Shown here in pieces: positions 34,807-40,550 of a DNA stretch of 64,000 bases; position 1 is the first letter of the stretch; every line of letters starts with the position of its first letter. Below the pieces are notes generated by a model. The model worked only from the letters and a program-made list of their open reading frames with translations, was not told where the DNA came from and ran no database searches. This stretch comes from Phormidium tenue FACHB-886 (lineage in GTDB: Bacteria > Cyanobacteriota > Cyanobacteriia > Elainellales > Elainellaceae): assembly GCF_014764505.1 (NCBI RefSeq), contig NZ_JACXWX010000001.1, positions 248,001 through 312,000 on the forward strand, in the 5' to 3' direction. A program made the translations under genes and the position numbers.

Positions 34807-34833
34807 TTTTGGGGCACGTTCCGTGCCCCAAAA
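34807..34833 (+). terminator. Perfect hairpin between the AraC gene and ndhH
   Basis: TTTTGGGGCACG-TTC-CGTGCCCCAAAA, a 12-bp stem with triloop, 80 nt after the AraC stop. The following CAAGTCACTTGGTCACAGCT resembles the right end of the R2 repeat family, so the hairpin may be the inner stem of a degenerate R2 copy serving as a terminator. Confidence 0.55.
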
Positions 34834-34966
34834 CTTCTCAAGTCACTTGGTCACAGCTAAAGAATCAGAGAAACCTACAACAATCGGAAAATTCTACAAG
34901 ACTAACGGTCGCTCGTTTTTTCACACTGCAATTAAGCAATTTGAATTCCTGCAGGGAGCAATCGTC

Positions 34967-36151
34967 ATGAACAGAATTGAGACTAGAACCGAGCCGATGG
35001 TGATCAACATGGGGCCGCACCATCCCTCTATGCACGGCTGTTTTCGGATCATTGTGACGCTAGATGGAGAAGACGTTGTAGACTGCGAGCCTGTGATCGG
35101 CTACCTGCATCGTGGCATGGAAAAGATTGCCGAGAACCGTACTCCCATCATGTACATTCCCTACACCAGCCGCTGGGATTACTACGGCGGCATGTTCAAC
35201 GAAGCCGTTACAGTGAATGCGATCGAGAAGCTAGCGGATATTCCTGTACCCAAACGCGCCAGCTATATCCGGGTCATCATGCTGGAGCTAACGCGCATTG
35301 TTAATCACTTACTTTGGTTGGGTCCGTTTGTCATGGATCTCGGCTGCCAAACGCCTTTTTTCTATACGCTACGCGATCGGGAATTGATTCTAGATCTGTT
35401 TGAGGCAGCAACAGGATACCGGATGGTGAATAACAACTATTTTCGGGTAGGAGGTGTGGCGGTCGATTTGCCTTATGGCTGGACAGAGAAATGTCTGGAG
35501 TTTTGCAGCTACATGCTGCCCACATTAGATGAGTATGAAAAATTGATCACCCAGAATCCGATCTTCCGGCGACGGCTGGAAGGGGTAGGCGTTCTGAGCC
35601 GGAAGGCAGCAATCGACTGGGGCATTTCTGGACCCATGCTGCGAGCTTCTGGAGTGAAATGGGATCTGCGCAAAGTTGATCACTACGAATGCTACGACGA
35701 TTTTGATTGGGAGGTGCAGTGGGATACGGCAGGGGATTGTCTGGCTCGCTACCGGGTGCGGCTTGATGAAATGCGGCAGTCCCTCCAAATTATCCGGCAG
35801 GCGATCGAAGCTATACCCGGTGGCGCTTACGAAACCCTTGAAGCCCATCGGATGGCAGCAGGTCCTAAGTCAGAGTTGAACCAGCTTGACTATCACTTCA
35901 TCTCCAAAAAGATTGCTCCTACTTTTAAGATTCCTAAGGATGAACATTACGTGCGTGTGGAATCTGGCAGGGGCGAGCTAGGAATCTATCTAATAGGAGA
36001 TGGCAGCAGCTTCCCGTGGCGTTGGAAAATTCGTCCTGCAGATTTCAATAACCTGCAAGTTTTACCACAGCTGATCCAGGGGCAAAAGGTGGCAGATATC
36101 TTTGCAATTCTGGCGAGCATTGATGTGGTGATGGGGTCAGTTGATCGATAG
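34967..36151 (+). CDS. ndhH: NAD(P)H-quinone oxidoreductase subunit H (divergent)
   Basis: 394 residues from the ATG at 34967, supported by a GGGAG ribosome binding site. NdhH is the 49-kDa/NuoD-type subunit of NDH-1 whose loops line the quinone pocket. Clear matches: [50 protein letters not shown] and [15 protein letters not shown]. However, several positions that are near-invariant in cyanobacterial NdhH, as I recall it, differ: HGCFRII instead of [24 protein letters not shown] instead of NVMYVPYVSRWDYAAGM, and [21 protein letters not shown]. This suggests a second, specialised copy or an unusual lineage. No other ndh gene is adjacent. Confidence 0.9.
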
Positions 36152-36684
36152 TCTCAAGAAAAATTACATTTTTTGAGGAAATATTTCAAAATTGACTTTA
36201 CTAGCAAAACTGTGTATAGAACAAAACATGGGATTTAGTCCAGGCAGTTTTTGACCGCACTACGCCTGCTCGCCTTTCGCAACGCGGTTAAGCAGGTTAA
36301 AACTTTACAAAACCACTCATCTGAAAGATAGAGCAAATTCCATTTGGGATCTGCAGAATAGCCCCCAAACGTAAAGTTTTATCTACCTTTCGTCAGCTTG
36401 ACTCGTTTAGAAAGTTAAGCGACACTAAAACTTAATAACTGGAGCATAGCCTCACTAGTCTGCTAACTTTATTTACGGTTTGACTCGGATTATCCCAAGA
36501 TTTGCCTTTTAGCGAATTTGCAGGTTCAATCTGAATTAAACCTAACCGAGTCTTTAAGGGCACGTCTCTAAGGCTAGAGGGTGGACTGGGTGCTGATCGC
36601 AAGCGATCGGCAAAGGCAAACTGGCAGTAACTTATACCAAGCTAAACGCAGACTTGCTAAATATCGGAGGGCTGGTCAACGAAG
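36152..36684. other. Intergenic region, no gene recognised
   Basis: About 530 nt between ndhH and the DUF2997 gene. The only structure noted is AAAACTTTAC (36299-36308) with its perfect complement GTAAAGTTTT (36371-36380), a 10-bp stem with a 62-nt loop that could be an RNA fold or chance. No ORF or tRNA. A GGAGGG ribosome binding site precedes the ATG at 36685. Confidence 0.4.
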
Positions 36685-36891
36685 ATGGAAACGTTGGAAT
36701 TCATTATCTATCCAGATGGGCGTGTGCAGGAAAAGGTGACAGGCATAGTGGGAGCGTCCTGTGCTGAAGTCACAGCTGCGATCGAGGCTCAACTGGGTGT
36801 AGTTATTACTCAAGACACCACCTCTGAATATTTTGCTCAGTCTGTGCAATGCGTATCCACACAGTCTCAAGCCACCTTTAGTGAATGGTAG
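36685..36891 (+). CDS. DUF2997 domain protein
   Basis: 68 residues: METLEFIIYPDGRVQEKVTG, GASCAEVTAAIEAQLG and TTSEYFAQSV. This is the DUF2997 pattern (short beta hairpin, helix with a conserved Cys, then a strand). Such proteins are encoded next to Ycf35 (DUF1257) in cyanobacteria, as here, 180 nt upstream of ycf35 on the same strand. Function unknown; the strict pairing suggests a complex with Ycf35. Confidence 0.87.
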   Translation: METLEFIIYPDGRVQEKVTGIVGASCAEVTAAIEAQLGVVITQDTTSEYFAQSVQCVSTQSQATFSEW

Positions 36892-36923
36892 ACATTCAAG
36901 TCTAGATAATCTTGTCTGGATGG

Positions 36924-36971
36924 CTCTTAGTCTAGGTCACTCCTAGTCTGGGTAGCTCTTAGTCTAGGTAA
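36924..36971. repeat. 16-bp tandem repeat, three units
   Basis: CTCTTAGTCTAGGTCA, CTCCTAGTCTGGGTAG and CTCTTAGTCTAGGTAA in a row, between the DUF2997 gene and ycf35. The reverse complement resembles the unit of the four-copy 16-bp array at 55996-56059. Confidence 0.8.
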
Positions 36972-37073
36972 CTCTCTAGCAAACCCCTATTTAGCCCTGG
37001 TCAGTCTTTAGATAGATCCTAGTTCAAACGTTTGCCTAATTTTGTCCAAATAACTATTTATTGATTATCGCCC

Positions 37074-37460
37074 ATGTCTCACTTTAGCCAGATTAAAACC
37101 CAAATTCGTGACCTCTCCTGTCTGCAAGCTGCGCTGACCGATCTAGGAATTAGCTGGAAAGCGGGTCCTCAGCCGGTGCGTGGCTACCGAGGGCAAACCA
37201 AAACTGCTGATGTTGTAATCGAGCAAGCCAATGGCTACGATATCGGCTTTAGCCAAAATGAGCAAGCCTACGAGCTCGTCGCCGATTTGCAATATTGGCA
37301 GCAGCCGCTCACCGTGCAAGGGTTCCTCAATCGCGTTACCCAGCGCTATGCCTATCATACCGTGATGCAAGAAACTCTGAACCAGGGCTTCCAGCTCACC
37401 GAGCAGCAGCAAAATCAGGACGGCTCTATTCGCCTAGTCCTGCAACGCTGGAGCGCTTAA
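37074..37460 (+). CDS. ycf35: Ycf35 (DUF1257) protein
   Basis: 128 residues. Family sequence throughout: MSHFSQIKTQIRDLSCLQAA, LGISWKAGPQPVRGYRGQT, ADVVIEQANGYDIGFSQNE and YELVADLQYWQQPLTVQGFL, then QRYAYHTVM. Ycf35 is conserved in cyanobacteria and some algal plastids, and its role is unknown. Soluble, no cofactor motif. Between DUF2997 and a ferredoxin gene on the same strand with gaps of 180 and 100 nt, an arrangement that suggests one functional unit. Confidence 0.92.
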   Translation: MSHFSQIKTQIRDLSCLQAALTDLGISWKAGPQPVRGYRGQTKTADVVIEQANGYDIGFSQNEQAYELVADLQYWQQPLTVQGFLNRVTQRYAYHTVMQETLNQGFQLTEQQQNQDGSIRLVLQRWSA

Positions 37461-37561
37461 GCAAATAGCCAAATTGCAAGGGGCTGGAGGCTAAGCTATT
37501 ACTTAGCGTTCAGTCCTTTACTGTATCTAGGTTGATCTAGGTTGAATTAGTGAGAGACTCT

Positions 37562-38008
37562 ATGAGCGATTGGTCTTCTACTCCGCCAGCGGACAATCAG
37601 CAGACTGGCTGCGAGCCTGAGCTAGGCGGTATCTTGCGAGATGCACCCGAGCGAACGGGCTTTGAGCCTGAGCTGGGTGGGATTGTACGGCAAAAAGGGG
37701 TGTATGTGGATGAAGTGACTTGCATCGGCTGCAAGCATTGTGCCCATGTTGCCCGCAACACGTTTTATATCGAGCCAGACTACGGGCGATCGCGCGTGAT
37801 TCGCCAGGATGGAGATACAGACGATATCATTCAGGAAGCGATCGACACTTGCCCAGTAGACTGTATCCACTGGGTCGATTACACCGAACTGCGAAAGCTA
37901 GAAGACGAGCGAAAATATCAAGTGATTCCGATCGCAGGATTCCCAGTTGATCGAGCGATAATTGCTGCTGCCCAGCGGCGGCGGAAGCGAGAGCAGCAGG
38001 GCAGGTAG
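37562..38008 (+). CDS. 4Fe-4S ferredoxin with duplicated EPELGG motif
   Basis: 148 residues from the ATG at 37562. An N-terminal stretch of about 45 residues contains the motif TGCEPELGGILRDAPE and again TGFEPELGGIVRQKG, an internal duplication. The ferredoxin core follows: CIGCKHCAHVARNTF supplies three ligands (CxxCxxC) and DTCPVDCIHWV the fourth (CP), enough for a single 4Fe-4S cluster. The C-terminus is basic and helical. Proteins with this layout occur widely in cyanobacteria and follow ycf35, and may carry electrons to an enzyme not yet known. Soluble. Confidence 0.9.
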   Translation: MSDWSSTPPADNQQTGCEPELGGILRDAPERTGFEPELGGIVRQKGVYVDEVTCIGCKHCAHVARNTFYIEPDYGRSRVIRQDGDTDDIIQEAIDTCPVDCIHWVDYTELRKLEDERKYQVIPIAGFPVDRAIIAAAQRRRKREQQGR

Positions 38009-38075
38009 CGCAGGAACGGTTCACACAGCATTCAAAAACCAGGCAAGGGACAAAAACCAGGTAAGGGCAAGTTCT

Positions 38076-40550
38076 TTAGGACAAATTCATTGGATCGATG
38101 TCAATCGTCAAGCTCACTGCTGACGGGCAGCGTGATCGCAGTTCTGCTAGATCAGGAATAGCTTGATCCAGCGGACGCTTCAGCAGAATTTGCCAGCGGT
38201 ATCGACGGGCAACTTTGGCAACCGATGCGGGTGCAGGTCCAAGGATCTGAGCTGCCGCTGAGGGAGGCAGCAGACTGCGGAGGTGAGTGGCAATGGCAGC
38301 CGCCGCCTCCTGAACAGCAGCAGGATCGATGCTACTGAGCCGCAGCAGCGCTAGCCCTCCGCAGGGTGGGTACTGCAGAGCTTGCCGATACTGTAGTTCT
38401 GCCTCAGCGAAGGCAGTATAATCTTGCCGCTGAACAGCTTGAATTACCGGATGCTGCGGCGTGTAGGTTTGCAAAATTACTTGCCCCGGTTCATCCCCAC
38501 GTCCTGACCGTCCTGCTACTTGAAGTAGCGTTTGGAACGCCCGCTCGCTGGCGCGAAAATCTGCCATGTGCAGCAGCCCATCAGCGGCGATGACGCCAAC
38601 CAGCGTGACCTGCGGCAAATCAATTCCTTTGGTCAACATCTGCGTACCCACCAGCAGATCGGCTTCCCCCTGAGCAAACTGACTAAGCAGCGCTCGATGC
38701 GCTCCTTTGGTGCGAGTCGTATCACTATCAAACCGTAGACAGCGCAAATTGGGAAACTGCTGGGACAGCTCCTGCATGACGCGCTGTGTCCCGCTGCCAA
38801 AGTTTTTAAGATAGGGCGAAGCGCAAGCAGGGCAGCTGTCTGGATGAGATTGTCCATAGCCGCAGTAGTGACAGCGCAGCGATCGATAACCCCCTTCGAG
38901 CGGTTGATGAAACGTTAGCGCCACATCGCAATGAGGACACTCCATCACATGTCCACAGCTCCGACAAGACACAAAGGTGCTATGCCCGCGCCGATGAATG
39001 AACAGCAGCCCTTGCCGTCCGTCTCGCAGCCCCTGTAGCGCTGAATGCAGCGATCGACTAAAAATCGATCGGTTGCCGTGCTGTAGCTCCTGCCGCATGT
39101 CTACAACTTGAATTGCCGGCATAGGACGAGCCTGCACTCGCTGCGAAAGAGATAGATAAATAGATCGCCCCTCCTGAGTAGCGTTCACCCAGCTTTCTAG
39201 CGAAGGCGTTGCCGATCCCAGCAGCAAGGGGCAGTTTGCTAGTTCTGCCCGCCACACCGCCACAGTACGAGCATGATAACAGGGAGCAGGCTGGTCTTGC
39301 TTGAAGCTGCCATCATGTTCTTCGTCAAGAATGATTAATCCTAGATTGGTCAGTGGCGCAAAGATTGCAGAACGCGTCCCGATGATGACCTGAGCTGCAC
39401 CATGCAGCATCTGCCGCCAAGTGTCATAGCGTTCCCCATCCGAGAGGGCGCTGTGATAAACGTGCACCTGTTTGCCGAATCGAGCACGGAAGCGATCGGT
39501 CAACTGCGGCGTTAATCCAATTTCGGGAACCAAAACCAGCGCAGATTTGCCCTGCTGCAGGAGCGGCGCGATCGCCTGCAAATACACCTCTGTTTTTCCT
39601 GACCCGGTGACCCCATGCAGCAAAACCTGCGTAAATCCATTTAGCTGCTTTAGGGTAGCAAGGGCGGTGGCTTGTTCTGAAGTCAGCGATTTGGGCTGGT
39701 CGAGGGGCGATCGGCTGTCTTCCAAGCGCAGGACTTCACGCGGCTGCAAAACGATACAGCCTTTTTGCGCCAGCCCCTTCACAACAGACGAACTCACCTG
39801 GCAGATTTGCAGCAGTTCTTGTAGCCACAGTTCGCCACCGCGCCGCTTCAGCACATCCAGGATTTCTTTTTGGCGTGGCGTTAGTTCCATGCCAGTATCA
39901 AGTAAGGTAACCGCCTGCCGCTGCTTAGGACGCATTGCGGTAGGCGGTTCTAAATAGCTCTCAACCCATTGACGCTGCAGCAGCTCGCGCAAGCCACGAC
40001 TAGCTCCCCGCACCTGCCGCTGCAGGTATTGCCAGGAATAGTCGCCCTGCTTCTGAGCTTGTAGCAACGCCAAAATGCAGGCTGCTGTGGGGTGCAAAAA
40101 CTGAGCATCTAAATCTGAAGGCACATGAGGCAAAAGCCGAATGCGACGCTGCGATCGCCCCAGCAACCCCGGCGGCAGGGCAACCCGAATCACCGACATC
40201 AGCGGTGTTTGGTAATACTGTGCTACGCGCTGCAGCAGCATCCAATACTCTGCTGGGAAAAAGTTCTGGCTAATTCTATCTTCGATCGGGCGGACGCTTG
40301 CAGGAGGTAGGGCAGCTGGCAAGCGAGACAGTAGCTGAATGGCGATCGCCCCGACCTGCTGTGCTCCAAACGGAACGCTTAAAATATCACCCGGGCATAC
40401 TGTTAGATCAGATGGAACTTGGTAAGTATACAACCCTTGTGCCCCCGCACAATCTACCAGCACCTCTACCCACTGGGGCTGCTCCAGCACTGGATATAGA
40501 GGTGCAGGTTCAGCAACGATCGGCGGCACGGAACAGGTGAGCGGCTGCAT
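38076..40550 (-). CDS. priA: Primosomal protein N' (helicase PriA)
   Basis: About 824 residues from the ATG at 40550 (MQPLTCSVPPIVAEP); the frame is open to an ATG at 40649 but that extension lacks family features. PriA restarts collapsed replication forks. Seen: N-terminal 3'-DNA-binding region (VLVDCAGAQGLYTYQVPSD), Walker A GVTGSGKTEVYLQAI, DEEHD, SATPSLESW, and the zinc-binding module CRSCGHVMECPHCDVALTFH continuing to CHYCG and CPAC (eight Cys), then TKGIDLPQVTLVGVIAAD and QVAGRSGRGDEPG. Complete; monocistronic. Confidence 0.94.
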   Translation of the reverse strand: MQPLTCSVPPIVAEPAPLYPVLEQPQWVEVLVDCAGAQGLYTYQVPSDLTVCPGDILSVPFGAQQVGAIAIQLLSRLPAALPPASVRPIEDRISQNFFPAEYWMLLQRVAQYYQTPLMSVIRVALPPGLLGRSQRRIRLLPHVPSDLDAQFLHPTAACILALLQAQKQGDYSWQYLQRQVRGASRGLRELLQRQWVESYLEPPTAMRPKQRQAVTLLDTGMELTPRQKEILDVLKRRGGELWLQELLQICQVSSSVVKGLAQKGCIVLQPREVLRLEDSRSPLDQPKSLTSEQATALATLKQLNGFTQVLLHGVTGSGKTEVYLQAIAPLLQQGKSALVLVPEIGLTPQLTDRFRARFGKQVHVYHSALSDGERYDTWRQMLHGAAQVIIGTRSAIFAPLTNLGLIILDEEHDGSFKQDQPAPCYHARTVAVWRAELANCPLLLGSATPSLESWVNATQEGRSIYLSLSQRVQARPMPAIQVVDMRQELQHGNRSIFSRSLHSALQGLRDGRQGLLFIHRRGHSTFVSCRSCGHVMECPHCDVALTFHQPLEGGYRSLRCHYCGYGQSHPDSCPACASPYLKNFGSGTQRVMQELSQQFPNLRCLRFDSDTTRTKGAHRALLSQFAQGEADLLVGTQMLTKGIDLPQVTLVGVIAADGLLHMADFRASERAFQTLLQVAGRSGRGDEPGQVILQTYTPQHPVIQAVQRQDYTAFAEAELQYRQALQYPPCGGLALLRLSSIDPAAVQEAAAAIATHLRSLLPPSAAAQILGPAPASVAKVARRYRWQILLKRPLDQAIPDLAELRSRCPSAVSLTIDIDPMNLS

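Follow-up and report, generated by a model that had tools for sequence, protein, structure and literature searches.

The fed7 gene cluster and related systems

A stretch of 64,000 nucleotides from Phormidium tenue FACHB-886 (contig NZ_JACXWX010000001.1, positions 248,001 to 312,000; hereafter the window) carries neighbouring genes for a DUF2997 protein, Ycf35 (DUF1257) and the 4Fe-4S ferredoxin Fed7. The same three genes in the same order form the conserved 'cluster g' (duf2997-ycf35-fed7) of a 2014 review, and the window locus is a member of that cluster (PMC4284462). A preliminary description of this DNA had called the trio an uncharacterised redox module; the first of these terms did not hold, as both the cluster and the Fed7 phenotypes were published in 2014 (PMC4284462). 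Cells can do without Fed7 but need it to withstand oxidative, metal and salt stress, and they up-regulate it when iron or inorganic carbon is low or light is high; its partners are the ferredoxin-thioredoxin reductase catalytic chain and, in two-hybrid tests, the DnaJ protein Sll1384 (PMC4284462). Repression of fed7 led to better growth at 30% CO2 (PMC11782454). Going by titles and abstracts, Ycf35 is retained by many algal plastid genomes, and its marine/freshwater loss pattern in red algae matches that of ycf46, ycf34 and pbsA (PMC5940233). The main text of the 2014 paper does not contain EPELGG, a motif that occurs twice in Fed7, and its available portions name DUF2997 and DUF1257 (Ycf35) only in the cluster legend and assign neither protein a function (PMC4284462); nor was a mechanism or function for either found in the accessible parts of the literature on them.

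A second described relative, DnaJ-Fer, joins a J domain to a Fed7-like ferredoxin and occurs in green plants and Thaumarchaeota (PMC3564930). Its ferredoxin part is of cyanobacterial origin and the Chlamydomonas protein interacts with chloroplast Hsp70B and Cge1, but it differs from the window locus in that its chaperone link is the J-domain fusion itself (PMC3564930). The interaction of Fed7 with DnaJ (PMC4284462) and the J-domain fusion of its green relative (PMC3564930) together tie Fed7 to the Hsp70 system.

In our judgement there is about an even chance that the DUF2997-Ycf35 pair reads an N-terminal tag on Fed7 and links this ferredoxin to Hsp70/AAA+ care, a proposal in which the binding, an ATPase acting in trans and the outcome are inferred. 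The operon, the pair, the wider module around it, and the tag with its coupling to the pair in cyanobacteria and two Chloroflexota are established at the level of sequence. As far as the accessible literature shows, what is new is that the already known trio belongs to a broad family that is linked to AAA+/Hsp70 and shares a tandem LGG tag. Two familiar systems are alike in design. HscA/HscB, which read the LPPVK motif of IscU, likewise make up an Hsp70 system that serves one particular Fe-S protein by recognising a short motif, but they involve neither DUF1257 nor DUF2997, the motif is another one, and the client is a scaffold rather than a ferredoxin. SspB/ssrA and other tag-plus-adaptor systems of AAA+ machines have the same combination of short portable tag, small adaptor and AAA+ motor, although the adaptor families are unrelated, the ssrA tag is C-terminal and the outcome is proteolysis.

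Conservation of the operon in Cyanobacteriota

Open reading frames (ORFs) and Pfam profiles confirmed the three same-strand genes of the preliminary description: on the + strand, the DUF2997 protein (68 amino acids; 36685-36891; PF11211, E 1.4e-21) is followed by Ycf35 (128 amino acids; 37074-37460; PF06868, E 4.6e-46) and Fed7 (PF13370 Fer4_13, E 3.1e-18). The listed Fed7 ORF (37550-38008) opens with GTG, but many Fed7 homologues begin with MSD, MSE or MAD, so the in-frame ATG at 37562 is preferred and the gene probably spans 37562-38008. The trio is collinear on one strand as in cluster g, its first two genes are adjacent as in the wider DUF1257-DUF2997 module, and it co-encodes a tandem LGG-tagged protein, Fed7, with EPELGG twice. 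No other Fed7 match was found in this genome at E <= 1e-15.

A search of 244 Cyanobacteriota genomes gave, among the matches listed, DUF1257 in 124, DUF2997 in 154 and Fed7 in 114 (E <= 1e-15). All 114 Fed7-positive genomes have DUF2997, Ycf35 and Fed7 in the same order on one strand, counting DUF1257 and DUF2997 places among the matches listed and leaving out weaker ones; spacings from match start to match start are 244-2074 nucleotides and then 275-709 nucleotides. Two genomes (G195, G199) have a second Fed7-like place, which was in the input to this count and was not needed for it. Phylogenetic co-occurrence thus upholds the three genes as a co-conserved unit. Ssl1263 of Synechocystis is presumably its DUF2997 protein. 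Joint expression is documented in that organism, in which fed7 lies in a tricistronic operon written ssl0060-ssl1263-ssl0662 (PMC4284462), and ssl1263, fed7 and ycf35 all appear in one list of SigD-dependent transcripts (PMC8875361).

By kinship labels, Fed7 occurs in 114 of the 117 genomes of class Cyanobacteriia versus none of the 127 genomes outside it; four of these 127 were tested for Photo_RC, and all four lacked the gene. An intact Photo_RC gene is missing from two of the three class members that lack Fed7: G177 yielded no match, and G141 yielded three incomplete matches, of which two contain internal stops; the congener G137 has intact genes. Both G177 and G141 probably come from diatom endosymbionts that do not photosynthesise, which we take to be spheroid bodies. 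The third, G171, is photosynthetic. In a second sample of the class (n = 117), a profile of the Fed7 tag matched 98 genomes and missed 19. Nine of those missed are small genomes of one family (f19), which we take to be Prochlorococcus and marine Synechococcus; all nine are Fed7-positive by the Fed7 search, and the tag is short in the single example read (L051). The other ten, seven of family f25 plus G452, G456 and G479, also lack Fed7 at E <= 1e-6, and all ten carry Photo_RC genes. Family f25 is presumably the Synechococcus JA group. A table of 2014 records no fed7 in two Synechococcus JA strains (PMC4284462). Because ten photosynthetic genomes are without Fed7, the idea that the operon is essential for photosynthesis was rejected: it accompanies photosynthesis but is inessential to it. 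In line with the preliminary expectation that the trio matters to photosynthetic cells, its Fed7 form tracks photosynthesis, though only in part.

Outside the class, DUF2997 was found in 38/127 genomes and DUF1257 in only 8/127, among the matches listed; family f30 (e.g., G034 and G037) has DUF2997 proteins seemingly without the usual DUF1257 partner.

A doubled EPELGG tag on Fed7

The N-terminus of the window Fed7 reads ...TGCEPELGGILRDAPERTGFEPELGGIVRQKG, and sequence reading together with the Fed7 alignment places two EPELGGI copies at 37613-37633 and 37664-37684 (+ strand). The repeat noted in the preliminary description is thus present, but both copies end in I here, rather than one in I and one in V. 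They differ in four of seven codons, every difference being synonymous, which argues that the repeat is kept at the protein level. Across 21 aligned Fed7 proteins, G33, E35, P36, L38, G39 and G40 of copy 2 are invariant, and with its core intact in 21/21 the doubled motif is not due to chance; in copy 1, P, E, L, G and G are each found in at least 90%, the copy being missing in L051 and L052. The same alignment shows C54, C57, C60, C97 and C101 to be invariant (cysteine region 37721-37864, + strand), comprising the 4Fe-4S ligands plus an extra Cys. This extra C101 is C100 of Synechocystis Fed7, in which the cysteines are numbered C53, C56, C59, C96 and C100, an offset of one from the window (PMC4284462).

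The tag is specific. The 98 cyanobacterial genomes matched by the tag profile have a single place in 96 cases, with two weak extra places, and in all 36 genomes checked that place is Fed7. On plasmids the Fed7-type tag gave one match, at E 6. Among 4780 ORFs of at least 90 residues from 294 loci, the pattern G-x-E-P-x-[LI]-G-G within the first 100 residues was restricted to proteins with a ferredoxin Cys pattern (the sole basis for calling them Fed-like) and to two Chloroflexota genomes, it being understood that loci L255-L271 and L275-L294 had themselves been fetched by the tag.

These figures bear on a further alternative, that the three genes are transcribed together without co-operating, EPELGG being private to Fed7 and its likeness to the tags of Chloroflexota and of HEAT proteins (described below) a convergence. 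LGG is a short motif and most DUF1257 modules are without a visible tag, as this alternative would have it, but we consider it very improbable given that the operon is conserved in 114/114 genomes, that the motif is confined as just described, and that plasmids yielded only the one match.

A wider DUF1257-DUF2997 module

DUF1257 and DUF2997 are the core of a wider module of bacteria and some archaea, usually with an AAA+ gene beside them and sometimes Hsp70 and GrpE. P. tenue itself has two further DUF1257 genes, one of which, on another contig, follows an AAA+ ATPase of what we take to be the Ycf46 kind. In other cyanobacteria, 20 regions around such a second DUF1257 type hold AAA+ in 17, DUF2997 in 16, Hsp70-like genes in 14, GrpE-like genes in nine and tandem LGG-tagged proteins in 14, Hsp70-like and GrpE-like being judged by sequence motif and all counts made by hand from the listing. 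Second-type genomes, 24 in total, were hand-picked from the DUF1257 places not belonging to Fed7 among the matches listed; their regions were viewed in 22, of which 18 have AAA+ and four do not (G038, G093, G110 and G171), G105 and G197 standing outside this count. Gene orders on plasmids include AAA-x-DUF1257-DUF2997 (Paenibacillus), AAA...DUF2997-DUF1257 (Planktothrix), DUF1257-DUF2997-x-AAA (Trichormus) and, as annotated, GrpE-Hsp70-DUF1257-ATPase-DUF2997-AAA (Pseudanabaena).

The module extends to Myxococcota, Chloroflexota, Acidobacteriota, Planctomycetota, two archaea and others, from which 80 genome loci were examined (one genome per species, 80 kept of 174 relatives; another scan kept 80 of 139 found). 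These loci, some of them shortened by contig ends, contain DUF1257 in 79, DUF2997 in 65, AAA+ in 62, Hsp70-like genes in 21 and GrpE-like genes in 13; DUF2997 lies within 500 nucleotides of DUF1257 on the same strand in 61/80, and AAA+ within 1.5 kb of it in 59/80. Pfam AAA and HSP70 were confirmed on example loci, GrpE passing its cut-off in L239 only. The notion of DUF1257 as a photosynthesis-specific family was dropped on finding it in many non-photosynthetic phyla. Nor does the label 'redox module' suit all three proteins, for the pair is found across many phyla, and in phages too, either beside AAA+/Hsp70 or alone, a distribution that points to protein handling.

Protein handling could also mean disposal or delivery. 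The tandem LGG might be a degradation or localisation signal by which the pair delivers proteins to an AAA+ unfoldase for turnover, or to a complex or a site, and not to folding. The tag is N-terminal, portable and found on several folds, the AAA+ proteins of the module give hits to ATPases of the CDC48, proteasome-activating, FtsH and IetA types, and in P. tenue an FtsH-like protein (identified by eye) is encoded at a distance of about 1.3 kb from the third DUF1257 gene. The Hsp70 and GrpE of some modules suit folding better, however, and delivery of this kind seems to us improbable.

The third DUF1257 gene, on contig C47 (L007, 1215-4763), lies near that FtsH-like gene and also near two transposase-like ORFs (both by eye); the name FtsH, like Ycf46 above, is our own assignment. 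On a Treponema succinifaciens plasmid (L077, 6001-6408) a DUF1257 gene sits within a contractile tail cluster (baseplate, sheath and tail proteins), with no DUF2997 or AAA+ among 11 annotated features, and the spirochaete loci L222, L248 and L253 likewise gave no DUF2997 or AAA+ hits. Four loci from Planctomycetota, Acidobacteria, Myxococcota and Hydrogenedens (L186, L209, L232 and L237) have at least three AAA+ hits around DUF1257/DUF2997, together with Hsp70-like genes; three of them also have GrpE-like genes.

Tag flavours beside the module

Proteins with Fed7-like tags are encoded in two Chloroflexota operons (L234 and L239), in which the order AAA-DUF1257-DUF2997-GrpE-Hsp70 is followed by the tagged genes. 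Those of L234 carry SGFEPGLGG...SGMEPAL (response regulator plus HEAT), SGLEPRIGG...TGYEPSLGGERR (HEAT) and SGQEPMLGGQRR; those of L239 carry SPRLGG...SGLEPGLGGVRR (HEAT), NEPRLGG...MEPMLGGLRR (HEAT) and NDPGIGGG (FGE-sulfatase). Both genomes hold further tagged genes elsewhere. Because L234 and L239 were among the sources of the Fed7-type tag profile (A8), it matches them by construction, so that the Chloroflexota scan, in which it matched 2/201 genomes (a strong match in G244, the genome of L239, and one at E 0.008 in G323), tests specificity only. DUF1257 was found in three of the 201 (G244, G349 and G421).

Outside cyanobacteria, the Ycf35 proteins closest to that of the window are those of Chloroflexota (L207 51%, L215 48%, L234 46%, L239 and L196 45%), and in a 97-row tree the Ycf35 of Fed7 operons and of phages forms one group (support 98/92), whose nearest neighbours, with weak support, are the Chloroflexota rows L207, L215 and L239. 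With Fed7-like tags also present in Chloroflexota, the flavour of the tag seems to follow the DUF1257 subfamily.

A second flavour accompanies the second DUF1257 type, beside which HEAT-type and other proteins start with tandem YDAVLGG...AVLGGIEGVKxRL. The folds behind this tag are, by Pfam, FGE-sulfatase plus HEAT, WD40 and LRV/HEAT, and plasmid copies are partly annotated as GUN4-domain proteins. The DAVLGG profile matches 23/244 genomes, namely 21 of the 24 with the second DUF1257 type versus two of the 220 others, among the matches listed (Fisher p 4.5e-25, or 5e-18 on a class-only background taken as 118 genomes where the true number is 117, both inflated by genome relatedness). Tag and gene covary inside genera g13, g21, g25 and g46 and mostly in g14, the exceptions being G239 (gene, no tag) and G121 (weak tag, no gene) in g14, G105 (g34), G166 and G193. 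Some tagged genes are distant from the module, including four of the five places in G093, as expected of clients in trans. Printed tag matches in L061 and L072 are due to chance and were left uncounted, and a looser scan of the 80 loci prints chance matches too. EPELGG and AVLGGIEG had no mention in the literature searched, and the mentions of DAVLGG concern, by title, cotton villin genes and cathepsin E peptides.

The DUF2997 and Ycf35 proteins

The DUF2997 protein contains Cys, as the preliminary description stated, in the form of a single residue (C26) that is invariant in 61/61 diverse sequences of bacterial, archaeal and phage origin. In a 66-sequence alignment of Ycf35, none of the invariant or nearly invariant columns is a Cys. 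The Ycf35 start codon (201 ATG; 9 in-frame GTG, read as Val) is followed by Ser-His in 210/210 distinct proteins with a covered N-terminus, a count made without an MSH filter, though some loci had been fetched with an MSHF-containing pattern; only proteins with 'MSH' were taken into the 66-row alignment and the 97-row tree, in which MSH is uninformative. AlphaFold2 models reached a mean predicted local distance difference test score (pLDDT) of 93.3 for Ycf35 and a pLDDT of 71.6 for DUF2997. Neither protein has sequence relatives in the PDB (best E 0.66 for Ycf35, no hit for DUF2997), and since the structure comparison scores are within the range of chance, no fold family is claimed for either. 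PADLOC left the window DUF2997 and Ycf35 unmatched; the AAA+ of other modules matches its IetA, which was taken as general AAA likeness, and a defence role was dropped.

The invariant Cys is central to what we rank as the main rival, which makes the preliminary description's view specific: Fed7 would exchange electrons with the DUF2997 Cys in a redox complex, with Ycf35 as scaffold and EPELGG as docking motif. Besides the 61/61 conservation of this residue, the place of Fed7 in the ferredoxin-thioredoxin reductase-glutaredoxin pathway and the importance of its own Cys residues for partner binding (PMC4284462) are in keeping with such a complex. We nevertheless think it unlikely, as modules and phages that have no Fed7 retain this Cys too, Ycf35 has no conserved Cys, and tags occur also on HEAT, WD40 and FGE-sulfatase proteins. 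That the DUF2997 Cys and the DUF1257 Ser-His persist in modules without Fed7 suggests that they serve the module and not Fe-S electron transfer as such.

Cyanophage copies of the pair

The same 15 phage records have Ycf35 and DUF2997: six are entries for Prochlorococcus phages (P-SSM2, P-SSM5 and P-SSM7, partly duplicated) and nine are marine single-cell virus records. In P-SSM2 and P-SSM7 the pair overlaps, and that of P-SSM7 has hli genes, psbA and a ferredoxin gene in its vicinity. In metagenomic viral loci, the pair overlaps on one strand (DUF2997 within 500 nucleotides) in 88/92, with DUF2997 first in 87, and AAA+ is present in 1/92. Four phage Ycf35 rows join the sole small-genome cyanobacterium row of the tree (support 100/96), so that the phages probably acquired the gene from a host. 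Overlapping frames at L004 3802-4381 and L005 3832-4384, annotated as hypothetical proteins only, represent the pair and are candidate auxiliary metabolic genes.

Proposed function

The AAA+/Hsp70 partners, the portable N-terminal tag and the published ties between Fed7 and Hsp70 make tag reading the most likely role of the pair. DUF2997 and Ycf35 would form a two-protein adaptor, a co-chaperone-like reader of N-terminal tandem LGG tags, whose dedicated client in photosynthetic cyanobacteria would be Fed7, recognised via its EPELGG...EPELGG segment. The adaptor may hand this oxygen-sensitive 4Fe-4S protein to Hsp70/DnaJ and perhaps also to a Ycf46-type AAA+ ATPase, resulting in maturation, repair or controlled partner assembly of Fed7 under oxidative, metal, high-light or low-iron stress. 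Elsewhere, in other bacteria and at other cyanobacterial loci, the pair with its own AAA+, and sometimes Hsp70 and GrpE, would handle other tagged proteins.

Several observations weigh against this proposal. The window operon has no AAA+, Hsp70 or GrpE gene beside it, hence a chaperone link would have to act in trans. Electron transfer fits the invariant DUF2997 Cys and the binding of Fed7 to ferredoxin-thioredoxin reductase (PMC4284462), and the modules without a visible tag, counted above for mere co-transcription, tell here as well. Fed7-like tags were seen in L234 and L239 only, the other 78 of the 80 loci, all Myxococcota included, having none in the fetched flanks; the DUF1257-positive Chloroflexota genomes G349 and G421, and those behind L215 and L250, gave no tag match, and the tree link of Fed7-operon Ycf35 to Chloroflexota L207, L215 and L239 is weak (81/26). 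Both presumed endosymbiont genomes retain part of the pair without Fed7, namely a weak DUF2997 match in G141 and two DUF1257 places in G177 (the better at E 2e-10). The Fed7-type tandem tag was not found in P-SSM2 or P-SSM7 with a profile that a single-copy tag would escape and that also misses the Fed7 of the small-genome family f19. Fold searches with the models were uninformative, both for Ycf35 (best Foldseek E 0.077; best VIA Z 6.4, root-mean-square deviation 3.1 over 80 residues) and for DUF2997 (best VIA Z 6.4, root-mean-square deviation 2.5 over 63 residues), and binding data for either protein were not found in the accessible literature.

A broader version of the tag-reading proposal can be put forward tentatively, and we hold it to be possible rather than probable. 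Here the tandem LGG tag would be a portable client code of several bacterial lineages, read by DUF2997-DUF1257 and acted on by a dedicated Hsp70/AAA+, with DUF1257 subfamilies reading different flavours (EPxLGG, DAVLGG); the Fed7 operon would be the photosynthetic branch, and the reader copies of marine cyanophages would act on host Fed7. If true, a tag-directed protein-care system serves a stress ferredoxin in cyanobacteria and very different proteins elsewhere, and has been taken over by cyanophages. Ycf35 is kept in nearly all sampled photosynthetic cyanobacteria, and the link to AAA+/Hsp70 and the tag makes the function of Ycf35 and DUF2997 testable.

Genomic surroundings of the operon

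A simple scan showed no terminator-like site on the + strand in 36100-38150, and the promoter/terminator scan of the operon was at background level. The operon lies between an NdhH-like gene upstream (34823-36151, +; by eye) and priA downstream on the opposite strand. The name NdhH is presumptive. Just upstream of the operon, this gene and NdhS (PF11623; 33394-33591, -), the ferredoxin-binding subunit of NDH-1, flank an AraC-type regulator. The DUF2997-ycf35 spacer holds an imperfect short tandem repeat at 36899-36979, with a unit of about 16 or 32 bases resembling AGTCTAGGTAACTC, which may have lengthened the gap between the two genes in this genome.

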